Below are positions 23,973-39,128 of a DNA stretch of 64,000 nucleotides, in pieces. Made by a program: the position numbers and the translations under genes. This DNA comes from Caenimonas soli (lineage in GTDB: Bacteria > Pseudomonadota > Gammaproteobacteria > Burkholderiales > Burkholderiaceae_C). A model generated the notes under the pieces. The model did not search any database. It was not told where the DNA came from and was given only the letters and a program-made list of their open reading frames with translations. The DNA is taken from contig NZ_JABJVV010000004.1 of NCBI RefSeq assembly GCF_013155545.1, forward strand, positions 124,001-188,000. Reading direction: 5' to 3'. The first letter of the stretch is position 1. Each line of letters begins with the position of its first letter.

Positions 23973-25052
23973 ATGGATCGTCGATCACTCATTAAAAACG
24001 CCGGTATCGCCGGTGTGCTGGCAGCGGGCGTGGCCCCGGCCGTGCACGCACAAGCGGCAGTTCGCTGGCGCCTGGCATCCAGCTTCCCCAAGTCGCTTGA
24101 CACGATATTCGGCGCGGCCGAAGTGTTCGCCAAACAGGTCAAGGCCATGTCGGGCGGCAAGTTTGAAGTGTCCGTGCACGCGGCCGGCGAGTTGATGCCG
24201 GCATTCGGCGTGGTCGATGGCGTGCAGCAGGGCACCATCGAGGCTGCGCACACCGCTCCCTATTACTTCTTCGGCAAGAACGAGGCCTTCGGCCTGGGCT
24301 GCGCCATTCCCTTCGGCCTGAACAGCCGCCAGATGTCGGCCTGGATGTATGAAGGCAACGGCATGAAGCTGATGCGCGAGTTCTACGCCAAGTACAGCAT
24401 GATCAATTTCCCCGGCGGCAACACGGGCGCCCAAATGGGCGGCTGGTACCGTAAGGAAATCAAGTCGCTCAAGGACGTCAAGGGCATGAAGATGCGTATC
24501 GGCGGCTTCGGCGGCAAGGTGCTTGAGCGCATCGGCGGCGTGCCCCAGAACATCCCCGGCGGAGAAATCTACCAGGCGCTGGAAAAAGGCACCATCGACG
24601 CGGCCGAATGGGTGGGCCCGTACGATGACCAGAAGCTGGGCTTCAACAAGGTCGCTCCGTACTACTACTACCCCGGCTGGTGGGAAGGCGGCCCGCAGCT
24701 CGATTTCTTCATCAACCAGAAGGCCTTCGATGCCCTGTCGGCGGAGAACAAGGCCATCGTGGAGTCGGCATCTGCCCACGCCCACGTGGTGATGCAGGCC
24801 AAGTACGACGCCTTGAACCCCGCTGCCCTGAAGCAGCTGGTGGGCGCCGGCACCAAGTTGCGTCCGTTCCCGCAGGACGTGATGGCTGCTGCTTTCAAGG
24901 AAGCGATGGGCCTGTACGAAGAGCTCAATGGGAAGAACGAGGACTGGAAAAAGATCTACGGCGACTACTCCAAGTTCCGCGCCGATCAGAACTTGTGGTT
25001 CCGCTTCACCGAAGCCACCTTCGACCGCTTCATGCAATCGCAGAAGTTGTAA
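23973..25052 (+). CDS. TRAP transporter periplasmic receptor DctP, 2-oxoacid (TakP) type, copy 1
   Basis: 359 residues. A twin-arginine-like signal (DRRSLIKNAGIAGVLAAG, cleavage near VHA-QA) suggests Tat export of a folded receptor. The mature part has the DctP features YYFFGKNEAFGLG, NTGAQMGGWYRKEI (Gln154), MRIGG (Arg175), DAAEWVGPYDD (Trp213) and YYYPGWWEGG. As I recall, Gln154, Arg175, Trp214 and Glu240 hold sodium and a 2-oxoacid in Rhodobacter TakP, and here the residues sit at nearly the same numbers, so a 2-oxoacid such as pyruvate is the inferred ligand. It is the first of three tandem paralogues, each with its own ribosome site and terminator, facing a convergent TRAP permease pair. 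Confidence 0.9.
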   Translation: MDRRSLIKNAGIAGVLAAGVAPAVHAQAAVRWRLASSFPKSLDTIFGAAEVFAKQVKAMSGGKFEVSVHAAGELMPAFGVVDGVQQGTIEAAHTAPYYFFGKNEAFGLGCAIPFGLNSRQMSAWMYEGNGMKLMREFYAKYSMINFPGGNTGAQMGGWYRKEIKSLKDVKGMKMRIGGFGGKVLERIGGVPQNIPGGEIYQALEKGTIDAAEWVGPYDDQKLGFNKVAPYYYYPGWWEGGPQLDFFINQKAFDALSAENKAIVESASAHAHVVMQAKYDALNPAALKQLVGAGTKLRPFPQDVMAAAFKEAMGLYEELNGKNEDWKKIYGDYSKFRADQNLWFRFTEATFDRFMQSQKL

Positions 25053-25069
25053 ACAACTTGCCTATGTGA

Positions 25070-25096
25070 AGGGCCCCTGCGGGGGCCCTTTTCTTT
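25070..25096 (+). terminator. intrinsic terminator after DctP copy 1
   Basis: AGGGCCCC-tgc-GGGGGCCCT hairpin followed by TTTTCTTTT, 17 bases after the stop. Confidence 0.85.
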
Positions 25097-25231
25097 TGGG
25101 TGTCAATTTCCTGACACGGCCGCGCATACGCAGTTCTTCGTAAGTGGCTTGAAAGGCTTTAGAGTGCGGGCCGTCGCATCATCGCGCGGCGTCCATACGC
25201 ACTGCAGCCCTAGAACTTACAGGAGATATAC

Positions 25232-26311
25232 ATGGATCGTCGTTCCCTCATCAAGAATGCCGGCATCGCCGGCGTGCTCGCGGCCGGAGTCGCGCCTGCC
25301 GTGCATGCACAGGCAGCGGTGCGTTGGCGCCTGGCCTCGAGCTTCCCGAAGTCGCTCGACACCATCTATGGCGCGGCGGAAGTGTTCGCGCAGAAGGTCA
25401 AGGCACTCTCGGGTGGCCGGTTCGACGTTTCGGTGCACGCCGCCGGTGAACTGATGCCCGCCTTCGGCGTCGTGGACGGCGTCCAGAACGGCACCGTGGA
25501 AGCCGCGCACACGGCCCCCTACTATTTCTTCGGCAAGGACGAGACATTCGCCATCGGCGGCGCCATTCCTTTCGGCTTGAACAGCCGTCAGATGAGCGCG
25601 TGGACTTATGAGGGCAACGGCTTGAAGCTGATGCGCGAGTTCTATGCCAAGTACAACATGACCAGCTTTCCCTGCGGCAACACGGGCGCGCAAATGGGCG
25701 GCTGGATGCGCAAGGAAATCAAGAGCGTCGCCGACCTGAAGGGCCTGAAGTTCCGCATCGGCGGCTTCGCCGGCAAGGTGCTGGAGCGCCTGGGTGGCGT
25801 GCCGCAGAACATCCCCGGCGGCGAAATCTACCAAGCCCTGGAAAAAGGCACGATCGATGCAGCTGAATGGATCGGGCCCTACGACGACCAGAAGCTGGGA
25901 TTCAACAAGGTTGCGCCTTTCTACTACTACCCCGGCTGGTGGGAAGGCGGGCTGCAGCTCGACCTGTACGTCAACCAGAAGGCCTACGACGCATTGTCGG
26001 CCGAGAACAAGGCCATCGTTGAAATGGCCAGCACCTTCGCCCACGTGGAGACGCAGGCCAAGTACGACGTGAAGAACCCCGGTGCACTCAAGCAGTTGGT
26101 GGGCTCGGGCGCCAAGCTTCGCCCGTTCCCGGCCGATGTGATGGCTGCGGCGTTCAAGCAGTCGATGTCCCTGTACGATGAGATTTCGGCCAAGAACGAG
26201 AACTGGCGCAAGGTGTATGCCGACTACCAGAAATTCCGCTCGGACCAGAACCTGTGGTTCCGTTTCACCGAGGCGACCTTCGATCGCTTCATGCAGTCGC
26301 AAAAACTGTAG
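25232..26311 (+). CDS. TRAP transporter periplasmic receptor DctP, 2-oxoacid type, copy 2
   Basis: 359 residues, the same length as copy 1 and very similar throughout, including an identical Tat-like signal (MDRRSLIKNAGIAGVLAAGV). The pocket residues NTGAQMGGW (Gln154), FRIGG (Arg175) and DAAEWIGPYDD (Trp213) are kept. Differences cluster in surface helices and in loops such as TYEGNGLKLM and SFPCGN. It has its own ribosome site (ACAGGAGAT) and its own terminator, so it can be expressed apart from copies 1 and 3. It is likely a recent duplicate serving the same permease with a related 2-oxoacid. Confidence 0.9.
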   Translation: MDRRSLIKNAGIAGVLAAGVAPAVHAQAAVRWRLASSFPKSLDTIYGAAEVFAQKVKALSGGRFDVSVHAAGELMPAFGVVDGVQNGTVEAAHTAPYYFFGKDETFAIGGAIPFGLNSRQMSAWTYEGNGLKLMREFYAKYNMTSFPCGNTGAQMGGWMRKEIKSVADLKGLKFRIGGFAGKVLERLGGVPQNIPGGEIYQALEKGTIDAAEWIGPYDDQKLGFNKVAPFYYYPGWWEGGLQLDLYVNQKAYDALSAENKAIVEMASTFAHVETQAKYDVKNPGALKQLVGSGAKLRPFPADVMAAAFKQSMSLYDEISAKNENWRKVYADYQKFRSDQNLWFRFTEATFDRFMQSQKL

Positions 26312-26332
26312 GGCAAAGCTCTAAGCTCATGC

Positions 26333-26359
26333 AAAAAGCCGCACACTGTGCGGCTTTTT
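26333..26359 (+). terminator. intrinsic terminator after DctP copy 2
   Basis: AAAAAGCCGCAC-act-GTGCGGCTTTTT, a perfect stem with flanking A and T runs; it can work on both strands. Confidence 0.88.
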
Positions 26360-26475
26360 GTTTGGTCAGTGCTTCCTCTTAAGTACAAGCACTGCATGTG
26401 CGTGCCAGCCTTTTGCAAGCTTCGCGATCCCAGGCGCAGCATTATCCGCGGCACCAATAACAGGAGTACTCATCC

Positions 26476-27558
26476 ATGGATCGTCGTTCCCTTATCAAGA
26501 ATGCCGGCATCGCCGGCGTGCTGGCGACCGGCATTGCACCCGCCGTACACGCGCAGGCTGCAGTTCGCTGGCGGCTGGCTTCGAGTTTCCCGAAGTCGCT
26601 GGACACCATCTTCGGCAGCGCCGAAATGTTCTCCAAGACCGTGCGCGCGCTGTCGGGCGGCAAGTTCGAGGTGTCCGTCCATGCGGCGGGTGAGTTGATG
26701 CCCGCTTTCGGCGTGGTGGACGGCATCCAGAACGGCACCATCGAAATGGCGCAAACGGCGCCTTACTACTTCACGGGCAAGAATTCGATATTCGCTTTCG
26801 GCTGCGCCGTGCCCTTCGGGCTCACGGCCCGCCAGATGGACTCGTGGATGGAGCACGGCAACGGCCGCAAGCTGATGGACGCGTTCTACGCCAACTACAA
26901 CATCAAGAGCCGCAGCGCCGGCAACACCGGCACGCAGATGGGCGGCTGGTACCGCAAGGAAATCAAGGGGCCGGGCGACCTGAAGGGTCTGAAGATGCGC
27001 CTGGGTGGCGGCCTGTTCGGCGAGGCCATGGCCAAGCTGGGCGTAGTCGCACAGAACATGCCTGCCGGTGACGTGTACCAGGCGCTCGAGAAGGGCACGC
27101 TCGATGCGACAGAATTCGTGGGCCCCTATGACGACGAGAAACTGGGCTTCAACAAGGTGGCCCCGTTCTACTACTACCCCGGTTGGTGGGAAGGTGGTGC
27201 GGAGCTGGAGTTCTTCGTCAACACCAAGGCCTATGCGGCGCTGTCGCCCGAGAACCAGGCCATCGTCGATGCCGCGACCAGTGTGGCGGCCCGTGACATG
27301 ACCGCGAAGTACGATGCGCTCAACCCGGTGGCGCTGAAGCGCCTGGTGGCCGCCAAGACCCAGCTGAAGGCCTTCTCCAAGGAACTGATGGATGCGGGCT
27401 ACAAGGCTTCGATGGAAGTCTTTGCCGAGCACGAGGCGAAATCACCCGAGTTCAAGAAGATCCACCAGGACATGCGGGCCTTCCAGCGCGACCAGCTGCT
27501 GTGGGCGCGCTTCTCCGAATTCCGCTATGACAGCTACATGAGCACCGTCAAGTTCTAA
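26476..27558 (+). CDS. TRAP transporter periplasmic receptor DctP, 2-oxoacid type, divergent copy 3
   Basis: 360 residues, one longer than the two upstream copies, and the most divergent of the three after a shared signal sequence. Gln154 (NTGTQMGGW) and Arg175 (MRLGG) are conserved, but the pocket segment reads DATEFVGPYDD, with Phe214 where copies 1 and 2 have Trp. The loop GGGLFGEAMAKLGVVAQNMPAGD also differs from GGFGGKVLERIGGVPQNIPGGE. This predicts a changed ligand preference within the same fold. It has its own ribosome site (CAGGAG) and shares a bidirectional terminator with the convergent permease operon, which may be the membrane partner of all three receptors. Confidence 0.9.
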   Translation: MDRRSLIKNAGIAGVLATGIAPAVHAQAAVRWRLASSFPKSLDTIFGSAEMFSKTVRALSGGKFEVSVHAAGELMPAFGVVDGIQNGTIEMAQTAPYYFTGKNSIFAFGCAVPFGLTARQMDSWMEHGNGRKLMDAFYANYNIKSRSAGNTGTQMGGWYRKEIKGPGDLKGLKMRLGGGLFGEAMAKLGVVAQNMPAGDVYQALEKGTLDATEFVGPYDDEKLGFNKVAPFYYYPGWWEGGAELEFFVNTKAYAALSPENQAIVDAATSVAARDMTAKYDALNPVALKRLVAAKTQLKAFSKELMDAGYKASMEVFAEHEAKSPEFKKIHQDMRAFQRDQLLWARFSEFRYDSYMSTVKF

Positions 27559-27641: not shown

Positions 27642-29420
27642 TTACTTCTTGTCGGCGGGCGGCTGCTTGAACAGCTCGTCCATCTCTTTGTCGGTGTCCG
27701 TTTGAGTTCCGGGTGCCGCGCCCGGGTCGGGCAAGGCGCCGGCCTCCGGCAGCTTTCCGGGTGAATCCTGGCGCAGCATGTCGCCCTCCATCTGGATGCG
27801 TACTTTCTCCAGGTCCACCTTCTCCGCCTTGTCCAGCCCGCTCGAGACGATTCCGGGGAAGCCGATGATGAGGCCGACCATGATGATCTGGATCAGCACG
27901 AAGGGTACGGCCCCCCAGTAGATCTGCATCGTGGTGACGGGCGGGATCATCTTGCCGGTGACGCGGTCCTTGTATTCCTTATCGGGCGCCACGCTGCGCA
28001 GGTAGAACAGCGCGAAGCCGAAGGGCGGGTGCATGAACGAAGTCTGCATGTTCACGGCCAGCAGCACGCCGAACCACACCAGGTCGATGCCCAGCTTTTC
28101 GGCCACCGGCGCGAGCAGCGGCACCACGATGAAGGACAGCTCGAAGAAGTCGAGGAAGAAGGCCAGCACGAAGATCAGGATGTTGACCACGATCAGGAAG
28201 CCCAGCTGACCGCCCGGCAGGCCTGACAGCAGATGCTCCACCCACTTGGGCCCGTCCACGCCCTGGAACACCAGGCCGAAGATGGTGGCGCCGATCAGGA
28301 TGAACACCACGAAGCACGACAGCTTGGTGGTGGTGTTCAGTGCCTGGCGCAGCAGCGAGAAGCTCAGGCGCCTGCGCGCCAGAGCCATCACGATGGCGCC
28401 CAGGGCACCCATGGCTCCGCCTTCAGTCGGGGTGGCGATGCCCAGGAAGATGGTGCCCAGCACCAGGAAGATCAGCAGCAGCGGCGGGATCAGCACGAAA
28501 GTCACGCGCTCGGCCATGCGCGACAGCAGGCCCATGCGGGTCACCTTGTTGATCAGCGCGATCAGGAACGCGAACAACACGCCGGCACACATGGACACCA
28601 CGATGGTTTCGTCGGTGGCGACGGTGTCCACTTTCGTGCCCGTCCACCAGCTGACGACAGCGGCGTAGTTTTTCCCCAGGGTGACGGCCAGGGCCGTCGA
28701 AATCACGGTCAGCGCCAGCAGCGATGGCAGGCCCGCCTTGCCGCTGTCCTCGCGAATGGTCCGGGCTTCGAGCGGCAGTGCCGGAACCCAGTGGGGCTTG
28801 ATAAACGCGAGGATGACGACGTAAAGCGCATACATGCCCGTGAGGATGAAGCCGGGAACGAACGCGCCCTTGTACATATCGCCCACGCTGCGCCCCAACT
28901 GGTCGGCCAGGATGATCAGCACCAGCGAGGGCGGGATGATCTGTGCTAGCGTTCCCGAAGCCGCGATCACGCCCGTCGCCAGGCGGCGGTCGTAGCCGTA
29001 GCGCAGCATGATGGGCAGGGAGATGAGGCCCATTGAGATCACCGATGCCGCGACCACGCCCGTGGTGGCAGCAAGCAGGGCGCCCACAAAAATCACCGCC
29101 AGGGCCAAACCGCCGCGCACCGGACCGAACAGCTGGCCGATGGTGTCGAGCAGGTCTTCGGCCATGCCGCTTCGCTCCAGGATCAGCCCCATCAAGGTGA
29201 AGAACGGAATGGCAAGCAGCGTATCGTTCTGCATGATGCCGAAGATGCGCAGCGGCAGGGCCTGCAGCAGCGATTCGGGCAGGACGTTGAGCTCGATGCC
29301 GATGATGGCGAAGAACAGGCCGCAGGCGCCCAGGCTGAAGGCCACCGGGAAGCCGAACAGCAGGAAAACGATAAGGCCCGCGAACATGATCGGGGCCAGG
29401 TTTGCAATGAAGAACTCCAT
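27642..29420 (-). CDS. TRAP transporter large permease (DctM)
   Basis: 592 residues with more than 12 hydrophobic segments. Family landmarks are PFFTLMGLILERSGMAEDLL, the loop TTGVVAASVISMGLISLP, a GTLAQIIPPSLVLIILADQLG segment and MQTSFMHPPFGFALFYLRS. It is longer than the usual 430-residue DctM because of a central insertion (about residues 210-300) and a hydrophilic Asp/Pro/Lys-rich tail, which is the large form seen with TakP-type receptors. It should drive sodium-dependent uptake of the ligand delivered by the convergent DctP receptors. The small subunit gene lies 23 bases upstream in the same operon. Confidence 0.92.
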   Translation of the reverse strand: MEFFIANLAPIMFAGLIVFLLFGFPVAFSLGACGLFFAIIGIELNVLPESLLQALPLRIFGIMQNDTLLAIPFFTLMGLILERSGMAEDLLDTIGQLFGPVRGGLALAVIFVGALLAATTGVVAASVISMGLISLPIMLRYGYDRRLATGVIAASGTLAQIIPPSLVLIILADQLGRSVGDMYKGAFVPGFILTGMYALYVVILAFIKPHWVPALPLEARTIREDSGKAGLPSLLALTVISTALAVTLGKNYAAVVSWWTGTKVDTVATDETIVVSMCAGVLFAFLIALINKVTRMGLLSRMAERVTFVLIPPLLLIFLVLGTIFLGIATPTEGGAMGALGAIVMALARRRLSFSLLRQALNTTTKLSCFVVFILIGATIFGLVFQGVDGPKWVEHLLSGLPGGQLGFLIVVNILIFVLAFFLDFFELSFIVVPLLAPVAEKLGIDLVWFGVLLAVNMQTSFMHPPFGFALFYLRSVAPDKEYKDRVTGKMIPPVTTMQIYWGAVPFVLIQIIMVGLIIGFPGIVSSGLDKAEKVDLEKVRIQMEGDMLRQDSPGKLPEAGALPDPGAAPGTQTDTDKEMDELFKQPPADKK

Positions 29421-29443: not shown

Positions 29444-30040
29444 TCAGGCCTTGCCTTCGCGCTCGGCGAGGCGTCGGATGGATTCAGCGAGTTCTTCTTC
29501 GGCCGTCTTCTCGATTTTCTTGGCCGTGGGATCGTCGATCAGGCCCTTGAGGAATGCGACGCGCTTGATCAGTTCCGAGAAGCCCTGCAGCATGAGCAGT
29601 CCGAAGCCCAGCGGCATCATGATGTACACGGGCCAGCGGATCAGGCCACCGGCGTTGGAGGACATCTCCCCGGAGCGAAGGCCCTGGAGGAAGAACGGCG
29701 TGCCATACCAGAGGATGGCCAGGCAGACGGGAGTGAGGAACAGCGTAAAGCCGATGATGTCGATCCAGATCTGGCCGCGCTTGGACAGGCGGCTGGAGAT
29801 GACGTCGATCTTCACGTGTTCGCCATTCAGCAGTGTGTAGCCGGCGGCCAGCAGGAAAGCGGCCGCGAACAGATACCACTGCACCTCGAGGAAGGCGTTG
29901 GAGCTGTAGTTGAAGCCCTTGCGTACCGCCGCGTTGACCCCGCTGATAACCGTGGAGGCGAGGATCAACCAGATAACGTATTTGCCAATCTGGGCGTTGA
30001 GCCAATCGACGCCTTTGGAAAACTTTAGTAATGCCTGCAT
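29444..30040 (-). CDS. TRAP transporter small permease (DctQ)
   Basis: 198 residues from the ATG at 30040 (GGAG upstream); the frame extends further, but the added residues lack family similarity. Four hydrophobic segments, with the DctQ signature WYLFAAAFLLAAGYTLLNGEHVKIDV in the middle, and a charged Glu/Lys-rich C-terminus. It pairs with the large permease gene downstream. The 168-base gap to the divergent SenA-like gene includes an AT-rich stretch (30106-30180) likely to hold promoters for both. Confidence 0.9.
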   Translation of the reverse strand: MQALLKFSKGVDWLNAQIGKYVIWLILASTVISGVNAAVRKGFNYSSNAFLEVQWYLFAAAFLLAAGYTLLNGEHVKIDVISSRLSKRGQIWIDIIGFTLFLTPVCLAILWYGTPFFLQGLRSGEMSSNAGGLIRWPVYIMMPLGFGLLMLQGFSELIKRVAFLKGLIDDPTAKKIEKTAEEELAESIRRLAEREGKA

Positions 30041-30208
30041 GTTGTCTCCGTGAAGAAGTTCCCTGCGCACGCGAAGTCGATCACCGACTGATTTTTCAGT
30101 CGTTCGCCGGCCGTCTTGTAGTAAGGAAATTCTAGTGTTGACTATAAAAGCCAAGCTGACAGCTTTTTGACGGTGTATTCCCGGTGAATCGCCTAGTCAT
30201 AATGCCTT

Positions 30209-31474
30209 ATGGCCACCGTTTCACCGGACGCACCCCCTACGTCCATAGACGCGCCGGCGATGCGCAACGCCGGCCGCGAGCTGTTGTCGCTGGCATTGAT
30301 GGATGCGCGCAACCACAGCTTGCATTTGCTCTCCCACTATGAACAGGCGGCGGCGGAAGGCAAGCTGGACGTGCCTTGCCGTCCCGAACTCGAGTTGCCT
30401 CAGTGGCTGGCCGGGCATATCGGCTGGCTGGCCGAGTACTGGATAGGCCGCAACCCGCAGCGCAGCCTGGGGGCGGCCTGCCCGCCGGACGCAGTGCGGC
30501 TGGCCTCCATCGAACCGATGGCCGACCAGTGGTTCAACCCGGCCATTGCAACCCATGCGGCGCGCTGGCAGCTGCAGTTGCCCGATTTCCAGGCCATACG
30601 GGCCTACCTGCTCGACACGCTGGAAAGCACGCTCGAGCTCCTGGACAAGACGGCGGAAGACGATCAGGGCTTGTACTTCTTCCGCGTCGCCCTTTTTCAC
30701 GAAGACCTTCGCTGCGAACAGCTGGTGACGATGGCCCAGACGCTCGGCCTGCCGCTCAAGCTGGCGCTGCCCGTGGGTGTGCAGGCGCGCGACCCCGTGC
30801 TGGTGCCCGCCGGGCGCTGGCTGCTCGGCTCATCGCCCGGCGGCTTCGTGTTCGATGCGGAGAAGTGGGCGCACGAGATCGACGTGCCCGAGTTCGAGAT
30901 CGACGCCCAGCCGGTGAACTGGGGCCAGTACGTGGAGTTCGTCGACGATGGTGGCTACGACCGCCCCGAGCTCTGGTTGCCGCAGGGCTGGGAATGGCTG
31001 CAGCGCGAGGCCGACCAGGAGGGCCGGCGCGGGCCACGCTACGTGGAGCAGATCGGATCGGCGAGCGGCGCCGTCATGCGGACGCTGTTCGGCAAATCCT
31101 CGCGGATGTCCTCCAGCCAGAGCGCAATGCATGTGACCTGGTGGGAGGCCGACGCCTGGGCGCGCTGGGCGGGTCGGCGGCTGGCGACCGAGGTGGAGTG
31201 GGAGATGGCTGCGCACACCGCCTCGCGCCGGGGTTTCCGCTGGGGCGATGTGCGCGAGTGGACCGCCAGCACCCTGCGGCCCTGGCCCGGTTTCGAGCCC
31301 GATGCCTGGAGCGAACACACCGACCTGGCCGCACAACCGCGCCTCGGCCTGGCCCGCGTGCAACGGGGCGGATCCTTTGCGGCGCGTTCGCGGATGAAGC
31401 ATCCGAAGTTCCGGGGCTTCGCACTGCCCGACCGCGACGATGGCTTCGTGGGTTTCCGTACCTGCGCGCTCTAG
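30209..31474 (+). CDS. senA: SenA/EgtB-like non-heme iron enzyme (selenoneine synthase family) with an altered metal site
   Basis: 421 residues: an N-terminal DinB-like domain (about 20-185) and a C-terminal FGE-sulfatase-type domain (about 195-421) ending RVQRGGSF...RGFALPDRDDGFVGFRTCA. This is the layout of EgtB and of SenA, which joins a seleno- or thio-sugar to hercynine; blocks such as LLSLALMDARNHSL, LAGHIGW, FFRVALFHED and MAQTLG point to the SenA branch. The usual metal motif HxxxHxE reads His164-Glu-Asp-Leu-Arg168-Cys-Glu170: the second His is Arg (codon CGC, one base from CAC). His70 and His164 remain. No senB or senC gene is nearby, so it is an orphan. Its stop shares CTAG with the convergent regulator. 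It could be active with another ligand set or be a decaying copy. Confidence 0.72.
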   Translation: MATVSPDAPPTSIDAPAMRNAGRELLSLALMDARNHSLHLLSHYEQAAAEGKLDVPCRPELELPQWLAGHIGWLAEYWIGRNPQRSLGAACPPDAVRLASIEPMADQWFNPAIATHAARWQLQLPDFQAIRAYLLDTLESTLELLDKTAEDDQGLYFFRVALFHEDLRCEQLVTMAQTLGLPLKLALPVGVQARDPVLVPAGRWLLGSSPGGFVFDAEKWAHEIDVPEFEIDAQPVNWGQYVEFVDDGGYDRPELWLPQGWEWLQREADQEGRRGPRYVEQIGSASGAVMRTLFGKSSRMSSSQSAMHVTWWEADAWARWAGRRLATEVEWEMAAHTASRRGFRWGDVREWTASTLRPWPGFEPDAWSEHTDLAAQPRLGLARVQRGGSFAARSRMKHPKFRGFALPDRDDGFVGFRTCAL

Positions 31475-32577
31475 CGAGCCGGAAGGTCCCACCAAGGCAA
31501 CTGCCTGCGCAAGCTGAGCACCTCGCCGCAGGCACTGGCCTCGTATCCCGGCAAGGCCGCGAGCTTCGCCTGCCACGCGCCGCTGCGCAGCACGTCAAGC
31601 AGGGCCCCGACGGGCGGCTCGTCCAACGCCGCCTTGAGGCACACGAGGTAATAGTCCTCCTTGAGCAACGGGACGAAATCCAGCCCGCGTGAACGCGCCG
31701 CGGCCTCGATGCCCAAACCGGCGTCGGCCGCGCCGGAGGCCACTGCCTGCGCCACGGCGGCGTGAGAGGGTTCGGTGTTGCCGTAGCCCGTGATATCGCC
31801 GGGAGTCAGCCGCGATTGGGCCAGCAATTCCTCGAACAGCACCCGCGTGCCGGTGCCCAGTGCGCGGTTGGCAAAGCGCGCTCGCGATCGGGCCAGATCG
31901 CCGATCGAGGCCAGGCCCAAGGGGTTACCGCGCGCCACCATCAGGCCCTGGCTGCGGCGGGCAAAACCAATCAGCTTGTGCAGGCCCGGTTTGAGCAGCG
32001 GCTGGTACGCGCGTTGCGCCAGCGATCCGGCGGCGGGTTGCGGCGGCGTGTGAAAGCCCGCCACCGCGCAGCGGCCCTCGTTGAGTGCGCTGATCGCGTC
32101 GACGCTGCCGCAGAAGCGGACGTCCAGGTGCAACTGCGCGTTGGAGGCCGCATGTTCGCGCAATGCGGCCAGCGCATCATCGTGGCTGGCGAAGAGGGTG
32201 AGCACATGGGCCGCCGGATCGAACGCCACGGCGAAGGCGCGTTCCAGGTCCGCATGCAGCGACTCGATCTGCGGGGCCAGCCGTGCCTGGGCCTGGCGCT
32301 CGGCCCACAGCAGCTTGTCGCCGAAGGGCGACAGGCGGGCCGGCTGGCCTTTGTCCCAGACGATCAGCGGCTGGCCGAGTGCGGTTTCCCAGCGCTTGAG
32401 CTCGCCCCAGACGTGGCGGTAAGACAATCCCAGTGCCTTGGCCGCAGCGGAAATCGAGCCGCTTTCCCTGACCGAATACAGCAGGTCCATCAAGGCGTTT
32501 CGGATCAGCCGATCGCCTTGCTGCCCGTTCCAAGTGTAGGAAAGTTGGATCTTGCGCACGCGCCGAGTATGTCGCAC
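31471..32577 (-). CDS. ModE/LysR-type HTH fused to a periplasmic-binding-protein-like domain, regulator of the tungstate transporter
   Basis: 368 residues from GTG 32577, or 362 from GTG 32559, which I find equally likely. Residues about 25-90 are a ModE-like winged HTH (LMDLLYSVRESGSISAAAKALGLSYRHVWGELKRWE). Residues about 120-350 are a type-2 binding-protein fold (VAGFHTPPQP, ARGNPLGLASIGDLARSRARFANRALGTGTRVLFEELL, DAGLGIEAAARSRGLDFVPL) like that of molybdate/tungstate or MocR-type sensor proteins. It is divergent from tupBCA across about 80 bases, so it most likely senses the oxyanion (or a molybdenum cofactor-related ligand) and controls that operon. The 4-base convergent overlap with the SenA-like gene is CTAG. 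Confidence 0.83.
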   Translation of the reverse strand: MRHTRRVRKIQLSYTWNGQQGDRLIRNALMDLLYSVRESGSISAAAKALGLSYRHVWGELKRWETALGQPLIVWDKGQPARLSPFGDKLLWAERQAQARLAPQIESLHADLERAFAVAFDPAAHVLTLFASHDDALAALREHAASNAQLHLDVRFCGSVDAISALNEGRCAVAGFHTPPQPAAGSLAQRAYQPLLKPGLHKLIGFARRSQGLMVARGNPLGLASIGDLARSRARFANRALGTGTRVLFEELLAQSRLTPGDITGYGNTEPSHAAVAQAVASGAADAGLGIEAAARSRGLDFVPLLKEDYYLVCLKAALDEPPVGALLDVLRSGAWQAKLAALPGYEASACGEVLSLRRQLPWWDLPAR

Positions 32578-32655
32578 GGACTGCCGCTATGCACGCCGCT
32601 TCATAGCTCGTGATTCCGAATAGGCCTTGGCGCGGCCAGCGGCTAGCATCGCTGC

Positions 32656-33390
32656 GTGAATACGTTTTCGCAGAGTGCCGCCACGGCTTTCCAGCTCATA
32701 GCCGGGGCCGACCCGCTTCTATGGTCCATCGTGACGCGCTCGCTGGCCGTCAGCGCCACGGCCTGCGTGCTGGCTTGTGCCGCAGGCCTGCTGCTCGGCG
32801 CCTGGTTGGGAGTGGCGCGCTTTGCCGGGCGCGGCGCCATTCTCGCGTTGCTCAATACGGCGCTGGCCCTGCCGTCGGTGGTGGTCGGCCTGGTGGTCTA
32901 CCTGCTGCTGTCGCGTTCCGGGCCGCTGGGCTTTCTCGGCTGGTTGTTTTCTTTCAAGGCCATGGTGCTGGCCCAGGCCGTGCTGGTGCTGCCGGTGGCC
33001 GCGGCTCTGACGCGGCAGGTGGTGGAGGACGTCGATCGCGCCAATGGCGAGCAACTCCGCTCGTTGGGCGCGGGCCCCGCCATGCGCAGCCTGCTGCTGG
33101 CCTGGGACGAGCGCTACGCGCTGCTCACCGTGGTGATCGCCACGTTCGGCCGGGCCATCTCCGAGGTCGGCGCCGTGATGATCGTGGGCGGCAATATCGA
33201 AGGCTTCACACGGGTGATGACCACGGCCATCGCGTTGGAAACCAGCAAGGGCGACCTGCCGCTGGCGTTGGCGCTGGGCATCGTCTTGCTGGGGGTGGTG
33301 CTGGCGCTCAATGCCCTGATCGCGCTGGTGCGGCGTTGGCGCCTCGGGAGGGACGACCGGGTGCCGCTGCTGGAGGGAGCGCGCGGATGA
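32656..33390 (+). CDS. tupB: tungstate ABC transporter, permease
   Basis: 244 residues from a GTG, with about five to six membrane segments. The cytoplasmic EAA-type loop reads AEQLRSLGAGPAMRSLLLAW region (EQLRSLGAGP) followed by GRAISEVGAVMIVGGNIEGFTRVMTTAIALETSKGDLP, the hallmark of TupB/ModB-type permeases. Imports tungstate (or molybdate) with TupA and TupC. Its stop overlaps the ATPase gene start (ATGA). Confidence 0.86.
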   Translation: MNTFSQSAATAFQLIAGADPLLWSIVTRSLAVSATACVLACAAGLLLGAWLGVARFAGRGAILALLNTALALPSVVVGLVVYLLLSRSGPLGFLGWLFSFKAMVLAQAVLVLPVAAALTRQVVEDVDRANGEQLRSLGAGPAMRSLLLAWDERYALLTVVIATFGRAISEVGAVMIVGGNIEGFTRVMTTAIALETSKGDLPLALALGIVLLGVVLALNALIALVRRWRLGRDDRVPLLEGARG

Positions 33391-34088
33391 GTGGCCTGAT
33401 GCAACTAAAAACCGTGGACGTGTATTTCGGCGCCGTCACGGCGCTGGGGGGTGTGGACTTGCGTGTGGCGGCCGGCGACCGGCTGGCGCTGGTCGGCGCC
33501 AACGGCAGCGGCAAGAGCACCTTGCTGCGCGTGTTGCACGGGCTGCTGGCGCCCAGCAGCGGCTCCGTATTGCGCGACAGCGCGGCGCGCCAGGCCATGG
33601 TGTTCCAGCGTCCCTACATGCTGATGACCAGCGCGCTCAACAACGTCGCCCTGGGTCTGTGGATTCGGGGCACGCCGTGGCGACAGGCCAGGGAGCGGGC
33701 TCTGCTGGCGCTTGGCCGCGTGGGACTGGGCGAAGTCGCGATGCGGCCTGCGAGAAGGCTTTCCGGCGGGCAGCAGCAGCGCCTGGCGCTGGCGCGGGCC
33801 TGGAGCCTCAAGCCTCATGTCCTGTTTCTGGACGAGCCCACTTCCAGCCTGGATCCCCATGCCAAGCGCGAGGTGGAATCGCTGCTGGCTGAATTCGCGC
33901 AAGACGGCATGACACTGGTCTTTGCCAGTCACAACCTCGGGCAGGTCAGGCGGCTGGCAACGCGCGTGGTGTACCTGGAGCAAGGACGCGTGCTGGCCGA
34001 CCTGCCGGTGCACGAATTCTTCGACGGCCCGCTGTTGGCGCGCACTTCGCGCGAGGCCGATCTCTTCCTCAAGGGGGAATTGGCATGA
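33387..34088 (+). CDS. tupC: tungstate ABC transporter, ATPase
   Basis: 233 residues from the ATG at 33387 inside the tupB stop. Walker A GANGSGKST (37-45), signature LSGGQQQRLALARAW, Walker B HVLFLDEPTSSLDP and H-loop VFASHNLGQ are complete. It energises the TupB permease from the cytoplasmic side. The frame is open upstream to 32610, but that part lies inside tupB and is not coding. Overlaps tupA by ATGA. Confidence 0.9.
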   Translation: MSGLMQLKTVDVYFGAVTALGGVDLRVAAGDRLALVGANGSGKSTLLRVLHGLLAPSSGSVLRDSAARQAMVFQRPYMLMTSALNNVALGLWIRGTPWRQARERALLALGRVGLGEVAMRPARRLSGGQQQRLALARAWSLKPHVLFLDEPTSSLDPHAKREVESLLAEFAQDGMTLVFASHNLGQVRRLATRVVYLEQGRVLADLPVHEFFDGPLLARTSREADLFLKGELA

Positions 34089-34876
34089 AATGGATAGCCG
34101 CGCTGGTCTTGGGGACCACGCTCGCCGGAGCACAGGCGCAAACGATCACCATGGCCTCGACCACGTCCACCGAGCAGTCGGGACTGTTCACCCACCTCTT
34201 GCCCGAATTCAAGAAGGCGAGCGGTCTGGACGTCAAGGTGGTGGCCGTGGGAACCGGCCAGGCCATCGACATGGCGCGGCGCGGCGATGCCGACGTGCTG
34301 TTCGTGCACGACCAGGTGGCCGAGGAGAAGTTCGTGGCCGATGGCTTTGCCGTCAAGCGCTATCCGGTGATGTACAACGACTTCGTGCTGGTCGGTCCCA
34401 AGGGCGATCCGGCAGCCACCCGGGGCAAGGACATCGGCGCGGCGTTGAAAAAGATTGCCGCCGCCAATGCGCCGTTCATCTCGCGCGGGGATAAAAGCGG
34501 CACCCACGCGGCCGAGCAGCGTTACTGGAACAATGCCGGCCTGGCCGCGAACAAGGGTACGGGCTACAAGGAGTGCGGCTGCGGCATGGGCCCGGCGCTG
34601 AACATCGGCGCCTCGTCGGGGGCCTATGTGCTGACCGACCGCGGTACCTGGCTGAATTTCAAGAACCGCGCGGATCTGGCCGTGCTGGTGCAAGGGGACA
34701 CCAAGCTGTTCAACCAGTATGGCGTGATGGCGGTCAACCCCGCCAAACATCCGCACGTGAAAGTCGCGGATGCGCAGAAGTACGTGGACTGGGTCACGGG
34801 ACCGGCCGGCCAGTCCGCCATCGCCGGCTACAAGATCGGCGGCGAGCAGCTATTCTTTCCCAACGCCTTGAAATGA
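34085..34876 (+). CDS. tupA: tungstate ABC transporter, substrate-binding protein
   Basis: 263 residues with a signal peptide (ALVLGTTLAGAQAQ). The mature start ITMASTTSTEQSGLFTHLLP is the TTTST(Q/E)xSGL oxyanion loop that separates TupA (tungstate) from ModA; RGDKSGTHAAEQRYW and GTGYKECGCGMGPALN are the other conserved loops. It delivers tungstate in the periplasm to TupBC. The next gene, on the other strand, starts a molybdo-hydroxylase cluster, suggesting that the transporter serves the supply of metal to such enzymes. Confidence 0.88.
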   Translation: MKWIAALVLGTTLAGAQAQTITMASTTSTEQSGLFTHLLPEFKKASGLDVKVVAVGTGQAIDMARRGDADVLFVHDQVAEEKFVADGFAVKRYPVMYNDFVLVGPKGDPAATRGKDIGAALKKIAAANAPFISRGDKSGTHAAEQRYWNNAGLAANKGTGYKECGCGMGPALNIGASSGAYVLTDRGTWLNFKNRADLAVLVQGDTKLFNQYGVMAVNPAKHPHVKVADAQKYVDWVTGPAGQSAIAGYKIGGEQLFFPNALK

Positions 34877-34889
34877 CATGCGCCGCGAA

Positions 34890-36014
34890 TTACCGGCCCT
34901 TTTTTTGCCCAAGCTTGCGGTACACGGTGGCCCGGCTGATGCCGAGCACGCGCGCCGCCTGCATGACATTGCCACGCGCCTCGTCCACGGCCTTGCGGAT
35001 CAGCGCAGTCTGCAGATCCTTCAGCGGCAACCGCTTGGCGTCCAACGCAAGTTGATCGTCCGGCGTGCCGCAGGGCACCGCCAGGACCTGGAGCGTCAGG
35101 CCCGACCAGAGCGGCACTTCCATCGGGCCCTTGCGGCCGGCGGCATCGAACAGCATCTCCCAGGGCATGGCGAACAGGTCTGCGCAATGCTGCGCAGCAG
35201 CAGCGGGGGCCGCGAGCTGCGAGATCATTTGGCGGGCTGTCGGGTTGGCCGAGGCCAACCGGCCATCACCGTCCAGGCAGACCAGGCCGTCACCGTCACC
35301 GCCCATGGTCCGGCCCGGCCAATTGACGCGCAACAGCAGGGCGTGCGGCCGGGCGAGCGCCAGCGCGTTCTCGATGCTGCGCGCCCACTGCGACACCAGA
35401 TGCTTGAGCTCTGGGCGCTCGGCGGCATCGATCCCCGTCAGGTCCAGCATCCCGACGCATTCGCCTTCGGGGCCGAACAGCGGCGCACCCGCGCAGCTGT
35501 ACATGCCCGTGTCGTCGAAAAAATGTTCGCCGCGGTGCAACCAGACGGGCCGCAATTCGGCCAGCGCCGCGCCGATGGCGGTGGTGCCCACGGCCCGTTC
35601 GGACAGGTCCACGCCGATGCGCGTGATCAGATGGGCACGGGGATCGCCGCGGTCGATCAGTCCATTGACGTCGATGACCACGCCCTGTGCGTCGGTCAGG
35701 ATCGCAAAGTAGCGGCTATTCGCAATGGCACGGCCGAGTTTCTCGAGCACCGGTCGCGCGGCCTGCAGCAATGCGTGATTGGCTTCCTCGGTGCGGCGTG
35801 CCGCCTGCGCGGGGATCACGTCGAACGCCAGGCGTTGATCCGGGCGCTGGCCGTTGGCCAGGCAACGGTGCCAGGAGCGCTCGATCCAGCCGAACTCGGG
35901 GCCACTGTCCAGCATCGCTTCGCCAGCGTGGCGGCCCTCCACCAGCACGGCGCGACGCGCGAGGCCGATTTGCCGCAGGCGTTGCTCGGCAGGCGGAGGG
36001 AGGAGGGTGTTCAT
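34890..36014 (-). CDS. GAF plus Fis-type HTH regulator, lacking an AAA+ domain
   Basis: 374 residues from the ATG at 36014. The N-terminal two-thirds resemble AcoR-type sensors: IERSWHRCLANG, ILTDAQGVVIDVNG, a GVDLSERAVGTTAIGAALAELRPVWLHRGEHF GAF block and APLFGPEGECVGMLDLTGID. The C-terminus is a Fis HTH (LIRKAVDEARGNVMQAARVLGISRATVYRKLG). The central sigma-54 AAA+ ATPase domain (GAFTGA motif) found in AcoR is absent, so it cannot act as a normal sigma-54 activator and is probably a simple ligand-responsive DNA-binding protein. Divergent from the coxS-type operon, which it likely controls. Confidence 0.85.
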   Translation of the reverse strand: MNTLLPPPAEQRLRQIGLARRAVLVEGRHAGEAMLDSGPEFGWIERSWHRCLANGQRPDQRLAFDVIPAQAARRTEEANHALLQAARPVLEKLGRAIANSRYFAILTDAQGVVIDVNGLIDRGDPRAHLITRIGVDLSERAVGTTAIGAALAELRPVWLHRGEHFFDDTGMYSCAGAPLFGPEGECVGMLDLTGIDAAERPELKHLVSQWARSIENALALARPHALLLRVNWPGRTMGGDGDGLVCLDGDGRLASANPTARQMISQLAAPAAAAQHCADLFAMPWEMLFDAAGRKGPMEVPLWSGLTLQVLAVPCGTPDDQLALDAKRLPLKDLQTALIRKAVDEARGNVMQAARVLGISRATVYRKLGQKKGR

Positions 36015-36102
36015 GACTGTCCAGCGGTGGCGGGAGTTTGAATCAGTCGCACAAGTACCTATTGTTCCATTTTGAGAATTTCGTGGGTTGCCGTTCGGCG
36101 GA

Positions 36103-36118
36103 CTAGGGTTTCGCCTAG
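36103..36118. promoter_or_regulatory. inverted repeat between the GAF-Fis regulator and the molybdo-hydroxylase operon
   Basis: CTAGG-gtttcg-CCTAG, followed by a run including TATTCGGCCGAA, in the 160-base divergent gap. The symmetry and position fit an operator for the Fis-type regulator or a core promoter element for the 36175 operon. Confidence 0.45.
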
Positions 36119-36174
36119 GTATTCGGCCGAAGCGGGGTTCACAATGATTCGCGGCACTTTCCAGGAGACAAGCC

Positions 36175-36669
36175 ATGCAGGTGCAATTCAAAGTGAACGG
36201 CAAAGACAGGTCGCTCGATGTCCCTCCCAACACATTGCTCGTGCACGCGCTGCGCGAGCACCTCCACTTGACCGGAACCCACGTCGGCTGCGACACCGCT
36301 CAATGCGGCGCCTGCACCGTGATGGTCAACGGGCGCGCCATCAAATCGTGCAATACCCTGGCGGTGCAGCACCAGGGCGCGGAAGTCACGACCATCGAAG
36401 GCGTCGCCGCGGCAGATGGGACCATGCATCCGATGCAGGCGGCCTTCAAGGAATGCCATGGCCTGCAATGCGGTTTCTGCACGCCGGGCATGGTGATGAG
36501 CGCGATCGATCTGTGCGAGCACCACCCCGACGCCAGCGAGGCCGAAGTCCGCGCCCTGCTGGACGGCAACATGTGCCGTTGCACGGGCTACCAGAACATC
36601 GTCAAGGCGGTCCAGATGGGCGGCAAGGCCATGAGCGCCGCTGCTTCCGTCGCCACCGCCAGCGCTTGA
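36175..36669 (+). CDS. molybdenum hydroxylase small subunit, 2 x [2Fe-2S] (CoxS-like)
   Basis: 164 residues, the normal length. The plant-type [2Fe-2S] ligands [11 protein letters not shown] (residues about 43-53) and the second cluster CGFCTPGM with CRCTGY are all present. It passes electrons between the molybdenum subunit and the FAD subunit. AGGAG precedes the ATG. First gene of a seven-gene operon; the next gene starts 14 bases after its stop. Confidence 0.93.
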
Positions 36670-36683
36670 AAAGGGAGAGCATC

Positions 36684-39128
<2,445 letters not shown>

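Follow-up and report, generated by a model that had tools for sequence, protein, structure and literature searches.

The window, i.e., the whole stretch of 64,000 nucleotides of Caenimonas soli DNA analysed here (part of the contig labelled C34), contains a gene of the SenA family, divergent from genes of a TRAP transporter and convergent with a regulator gene that precedes tungstate-type transporter genes (Table 1). SenA is an iron-dependent enzyme that couples a selenosugar with hercynine (PMC9814287, PMC10891094). The iron site of EgtB is formed by three His (PMC10903977). The initial annotation had described the product as a SenA/EgtB-like protein, intact and in frame apart from one metal-binding position. 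Indeed, the frame is open to its end and the FGE-type domain is detected with Pfam. The protein obtains 391.2 bits with the NCBIfam SenA model NF041186 (cut-off 420) and 180.3 bits with the EgtB model TIGR03440 (cut-off 360), i.e., it stays under both cut-offs. The closest solved structures by sequence (HMMER) are those of Variovorax paradoxus SenA (PDB 8ryz, 265 bits, E 8.6e-78). The predicted model (22 sequences, mean pLDDT 72.9) has the same DinB plus FGE-like fold as solved SenA (alignment with 8k5i: Z 40.5, rmsd 2.2, 374 residues aligned). The assignment to the SenA/EgtB family is right.

Table 1. Features of the locus (window coordinates). The 114-locus synteny set includes four loci of the other SenA type and counts some genomes twice; the Arg clade and the senB-adjacent rows are described in the text.
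Feature	Coordinates	Strand	Evidence
dctM of TRAP transporter	27642..29420	-	Pfam DctM 333 bits; dctM-type cluster within 6.5 kb (<=6.5 kb) in 85/114 loci
dctQ of TRAP transporter, divergently oriented, with uncertain start	29444..30154	-	Pfam DctQ 70.7 bits; conserved synteny
SenA-family paralogue, 421 aa, probably a retired SenA	30209..31474	+	ORF, ATG start; NCBIfam SenA 391 bits; 8ryz 265 bits; 8k5i Z 40.5
His70 codon, first iron-ligand position, kept	30416..30418	+	His in 89/93 Arg-clade rows
His164 codon, second iron-ligand position, kept	30698..30700	+	His in 89/93 Arg-clade rows
Codon CGC of Arg168, which replaces the third iron-ligand His of canonical SenA	30710..30712	+	Arg 82/93, His 0/93 in Arg clade; His 28/28 senB-adjacent rows
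His370, aligned with presumed hercynine-pocket Tyr	31316..31318	+	Tyr 28/28 senB-adjacent rows, 18/93 Arg clade; inferred via OvsA M401Y
Gly403, aligned with presumed hercynine-pocket Asn	31415..31417	+	Asn 28/28 senB-adjacent rows, 0/93 Arg clade; inferred via OvsA Q430N
LysR/ModE-type HTH + PBP-like regulator, convergent, 4-base overlap	31471..32577	-	Pfam HTH_1 + PBP_like over cut-off; regulator cluster in 54/114 loci
Tungstate-type ABC transporter genes (tupB ... tupA)	32656..34876	+	TupA NF041772 236 bits (cut-off 400); permease Pfam 22.1 (cut-off 26.4); synteny

The regulator obtains 37 bits with the ModE model, below the cut-off of 98.5. The scan of 30020-31600 gives no sigma-70-like promoter site and one terminator-like site, vs. 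1.1 in shuffled sequences. Both transporter systems have further genes around them. Three tandem genes for DctP-type TRAP solute-binding proteins with near-identical N-termini (23973-25052, 25232-26311 and 26476-27558) lie beside dctM and dctQ, which are on the opposite strand; in this tandem (23973-27558) the binding protein is locally amplified. The region 34890-39128, which adjoins the tungstate-type transporter genes, carries molybdopterin hydroxylase genes for a large MoCo-binding subunit and a 2Fe-2S subunit (36175-36669), together with a GAF/Fis-type regulator (34890-36296).

Tree and synteny together identify the gene as an orthologue of the SenA genes that occupy this chromosomal place in Polaromonas and Rhodoferax. 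Many of these orthologues keep the three His, although Arg or Gln occurs at 168 in some Polaromonas rows, and senB directly adjoins the gene in many Polaromonas rows. At the 52 loci without nearby TRAP genes, no consistent new partner gene appears in the top clusters, and downstream only transporter genes resembling tup stand out. The conservation of TRAP and tup may be merely old synteny, since degraded copies of the gene (defined below) occur also without them.

The ligand motif reads H164-E-D-L-R168-C-E170. In the HMMER alignment H164 and R168 are opposite the first and the second His, respectively, of HEAMHAE in V. paradoxus SenA. The Arg at a metal-ligand position reported by the initial annotation is thus correct: H70 and H164 are present, R168 stands for the third His and the three-His iron site is incomplete. 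The loss of this ligand is real, but it is not the sole change, as several otherwise conserved residues are changed too, namely W349, Y370, N403 and, in the vicinity of the first ligand, E67 and Q75. Positions 370, 403 and 404 were mapped by HMMER alignment from the OvsA variant M401Y/Q430N/A431F, all three fitting one numbering offset; the hercynine-binding label of this variant is taken from the title of PDB 8ux5. Of the corresponding trio Tyr/Asn/Phe, the window protein (H370, G403, F404) keeps one out of three. Six positions were tracked across the family: 70, 164 and 168 (iron ligands), 370 and 403, and 349, which was picked for its conservation and has no known role. A copy is called degraded when any of the six is changed and full when all are kept.

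Relatives were collected with the window protein as the reference for similarity, and removal of duplicates with an identical C-terminal core left 208 rows (205 without three EgtB-type rows). Of 211 rows, three were left out, namely a distant ORF and two pieces of a single broken gene. The named relatives among the best 80 of at least 502 related loci are mostly Ramlibacter, Caenimonas, Variovorax, Rhodoferax and Polaromonas. In the FastTree tree of the 208 rows, for which the motif columns were removed, the window gene belongs to a clade of 93 rows (support 93), called here the Arg clade. Residue 168 is there Arg in 82 rows, Val in 4, Ile in 3, Cys in 2, Thr and Leu in 1 each and never His; the codon is CGC in 69/93 members. 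It should be noted that one copy deep in the Variovorax clade (L141) comes from a contig recorded under the name "Sphingomonadales bacterium 63-6", which is possibly misbinned.

Within the genus, 36 genus mates were searched and 28 full-length orthologues were found, with Arg (25), Cys (1), Val (1) or Ile (1) at 168. The initial annotation had considered that His in all close relatives would point to a sequencing error or to strain decay; none of the 28 has His. Both origins are ruled out by the conservation of Arg168 in the genus orthologues (25/28) and in the clade (82/93). Far from a lone oddity, the Arg form is prevalent across Ramlibacter, Variovorax and their kin. The remaining eight genus mates comprise one frame-split copy (L043 in G014, broken into two overlapping frames), one copy across two contigs and six genomes without orthologue (three of them about 80% complete). 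The window-type gene is dispensable in some genus mates, since six of 36 are without it and one copy is frame-split.

The six positions were then compared between rows with and without senB beside the gene. All 28 senB-adjacent rows read HHHWYN at 70, 164, 168, 349, 370 and 403, and none of them is in the Arg clade. Among the 177 window-like rows counted as senB-non-adjacent (including 8 with <1200 bases upstream, for which adjacency is not judgeable), 37 keep the three His. In the Arg clade, N403 and Q75 are kept in 0/93 rows, W349 in 2/93 and Y370 in 18/93. No row keeps His168 without His70 or His164, while both other His are kept in 108 of the 140 rows without His168; thus 168 seems, from the alignment, to be the first ligand lost. 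When only losses are allowed on the tree, the ligand set was lost 21 times (18 with weak branches collapsed) and the six-residue set 18 or 16 times. Judging from the substitutions, the pocket can also decay ahead of the metal site; L101, L102 and L252 keep the three His with the pocket Asn replaced by Glu and the Tyr by a gap.

The initial annotation had noticed that senB and senC partners are absent. This is true for the window but not for the genome. A contig of the same genome, C4, carries adjoining genes for SelD/SenC (29954-30883, 431.1 bits), SenB (30946-31905, 441.7 bits) and SenA (31953-33074, about 488.5-491 bits), and the second senA that was to be looked for is thus present. Its motif is intact and it obtains 502 bits with V. 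paradoxus SenA, vs. 265 for the window protein. Only C4:30946-31905 is over the cut-off among four SenB matches in the genome, the others being weak (C1, C2 and C3) and none being on the window contig C34. Likewise, a single SelD/SenC match, C4:29954-30883, exceeds the cut-off, and one weak match is on C19. It must be added that the absence of adjacent senB/senC does not by itself exclude a SenA, because intact orphan copies in other genomes are also without them. Three further genes have an EgtB-like HE[EQ]QHQE motif (L049 at C34:49k, L048 at C10:58k and L051 at C18:69k). Two neighbours were tested for each, and egtD (394 bits) was found beside the C18 copy only; its presence there indicates that the genome can probably make hercynine.

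The state of the window-type copy was compared with the SenA and SenB content in 106 of 110 genomes; G308, G189, G104 and G339 were left out, the match in the last two being an other-type SenA beside SenB. The comparison also excludes additional matches of G106, G182 and G110, and part of the first-look candidates was scored. "Other SenA" means a protein over the NCBIfam cut-off, with the pocket checked in 13 cases. The 56 genomes with SenB distribute as follows: full copy and no other SenA, 15; full copy and another SenA, 1 (G134); degraded copy and no other SenA, 3; degraded copy and another SenA, 37. The Fisher test of this association gives p 7e-10, a value without correction for kinship; with kinship-corrected independent pairs, 4-5 are in the expected direction and 0 against (median p 0.0625), the pairs being too few. 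SenB is undetected in 50 genomes, of which 47 have a degraded copy and 3 a full one, and none has another SenA over the cut-off. The three full copies without detected SenB are, with G134, the exceptions to the pattern. G264 (R168, SenB without adjacent SenA) was considered as another one and discarded, since another SenA over the cut-off is on a different contig. The class of copies that are not full includes 14 with three His and another of the six residues changed. With the ligands alone, 24/56 SenB genomes keep the three His, 8 of these having a changed pocket and another SenA.

A sample of 20 chosen SenB loci shows the same trend. In six genomes whose window-type copy has a full pocket, SenB is present with no SenA in the 5.5-6 kb around it, which makes it likely that intact orphan copies work with a distant SenB. 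In 13 others an intact SenA is beside SenB and the window-type copy is degraded in 13/13, by ligand loss in 11 and by pocket change only in G102 and G233. The twentieth locus is that of G264, mentioned above. In G079 the SenA beside SenB scores below the cut-off. In the Arg-clade rows (Ramlibacter/Variovorax lineage) no senB is adjacent, and in the genomes searched either another, unlinked SenA is present or SenB is undetected. Of the 56 Arg168 copies in a broader set of 133, 32 are in genomes without detected SenB, some of which are complete and single-contig (G007, G331).

The SenA model itself is of little help in separating these classes. For ten proteins, its scores are 508-534 for six intact orthologues, 370 for an Arg copy, 390 for a copy with two ligands lost, 321 for a copy with three His and a changed pocket and 491 for the C4 SenA. 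In the 106 genomes, the copies over the cut-off of 420 are 19/19 with a full pocket, 9/14 with three His and a changed pocket, 10/32 with Arg168 and 9/41 with other ligand losses. The cut-off does not separate the classes, and a score below it is weak evidence, since 19/73 ligand-less copies pass. Ligand-less matches over the cut-off are found, e.g., in G151 (C1:3359425) and G252 (C2:26044).

The NG86 dN/dS was calculated on non-overlapping pairs at least 80% identical. The median is 0.1275 in the Arg clade (26 pairs, range 0.06-0.26), 0.112 in three-His copies (15 pairs) and 0.141 in copies with other losses (7 pairs). Among the 165 columns conserved at 85% or more in 65 three-His rows, 127 are still so in the Arg clade, 5 have switched to another residue and 33 are relaxed. 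In the same clade the conservation of His70 and His164 is at the 70th percentile of columns and that of Arg168 at the 59th. The full length of the gene and the purifying selection show that the window-type protein is constrained and that the gene is not a pseudogene.

Taken together, these results are probably best explained if another SenA has displaced this one, which would be retired from catalysis but still has a selected, probably non-catalytic function. The ancestral state would be a selenoneine synthase, as suggested by the Polaromonas and Rhodoferax orthologues, which occupy the same place with ordinary SenA features and, in many Polaromonas, with senB beside. In the Ramlibacter/Variovorax lineage, the genomes searched have either another, unlinked SenA or no detected SenB. 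The third iron ligand of the old SenA (His, now Arg168) is gone there, and so are the presumed hercynine residues, whose role is deduced from the OvsA variant. The joining of selenium to hercynine by iron chemistry would then be lost; the suspicion of the initial annotation that this chemistry is lost or altered is upheld as probable. Selenoneine synthesis is argued against because one ligand, the presumed hercynine Asn and mostly the Tyr are gone, and a catalysis-independent function is argued for because the catalytic residues were lost repeatedly while the protein was retained. The protein is most probably a pseudoenzyme; its DinB/FGE fold would still bind a partner or a ligand at the old cleft or close to it, in a role of binding, regulation or structure. 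The points against this explanation are the persistence of His70 and His164 (though only at the 70th percentile), the exceptions listed above, the kinship-corrected p, the failure of the SenA cut-off to separate the classes and the dispensability of the gene in some genus mates.

It is also conceivable, with a confidence short of even, that the SenA at this locus had long held a second, non-catalytic job, which survived the approximately 16-21 losses of catalysis. The Arg form would then be part of a widespread Comamonadaceae-type family of pseudoenzymes, perhaps sensing or binding a betaine, a thiol or a selenium metabolite.

A neofunctionalised metalloenzyme appears unlikely. In such an enzyme, a metal would be held by His70 and His164, possibly assisted by Glu170, Asp166 or a bound co-substrate, and another oxidation would take place on a new acidic substrate positioned by Arg168. 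The near-constancy of both His in the clade, of E165 (93/93) and of E170 (92/93) speaks for it, as do the joint switches of Q75 to A, Y359 to W and L68 to A and the almost fixed new residues A75, A68, W367 and A405. However, Arg168 reaches only the 59th percentile, since Val, Ile, Cys, Thr or Leu can stand in its place, and other lineages have Leu, Gln, Cys or Val at 168 plus other ligand losses. Moreover, E165 (47/47) and E170 (46/47) are kept where the ligands are gone, and may therefore be structural.

That the gene is a functionless relic on its way out is very unlikely. The six genus mates without orthologue, the copy of G014 in two frames and the 33 relaxed columns are in the direction of such a slow decay, but the low dN/dS over the 26 pairs, the 127 columns still conserved and the full-length open frames in a clade covering several genera oppose it. 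Finally, selenoneine synthesis by the Arg form with a distant SenB is rejected in view of the SenB-less genomes and of the pairing of degraded copies with another SenA; a SenA still working, with Arg168 substituting as ligand, is hardly credible despite its SenA fold, the SenB and egtD of the genome and the Arg168 copies that pass the SenA cut-off, given the 32/56 Arg168 copies without detected SenB, the loss of N403 in 93/93 rows and the other SenA beside SenB in its own genome.

These results have three consequences: (i) the selenoneine capacity of genomes can be over-counted, the family model accepting 19/73 ligand-less copies; (ii) the family offers a natural experiment in which an enzyme is retired repeatedly when there is a substitute or no pathway, and yet is often not deleted; (iii) a hidden second role of SenA can be tested directly in cultivable soil bacteria. 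No SenA paralogue without an iron ligand was found in the titles and abstract openings searched, a search that covers few subscription papers and is thus no proof of being unpublished.

With respect to known systems, the window protein resembles SenA (NF041186; V. paradoxus SenA 8k5i and 8ryz) by its whole-length similarity, its fold, the conserved GFR-C at the C-terminus and two of the three ligand His. It differs from SenA by the Arg in place of the third His, by the Gly and His in place of the Asn and Tyr of the presumed pocket, by a score of 391 vs. 420 and by the lack of adjacent senB/senC. The DinB plus FGE-like architecture is shared with the sulfoxide synthase EgtB and the selenoxide synthase OvsA, which are nevertheless more distant than SenA (best E 2.5e-39 for OvsA and 7.6e-38 for EgtB vs. 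8.6e-78 for SenA). A precedent for a non-catalytic FGE-domain protein is found in the OCTIN superfamily; OCTIN is described in PMC5915273 as a structural FGE-domain protein from which the catalytic cysteines are absent. OCTIN has an N-terminal region of its own, and its likeness to the window protein concerns the FGE domain.
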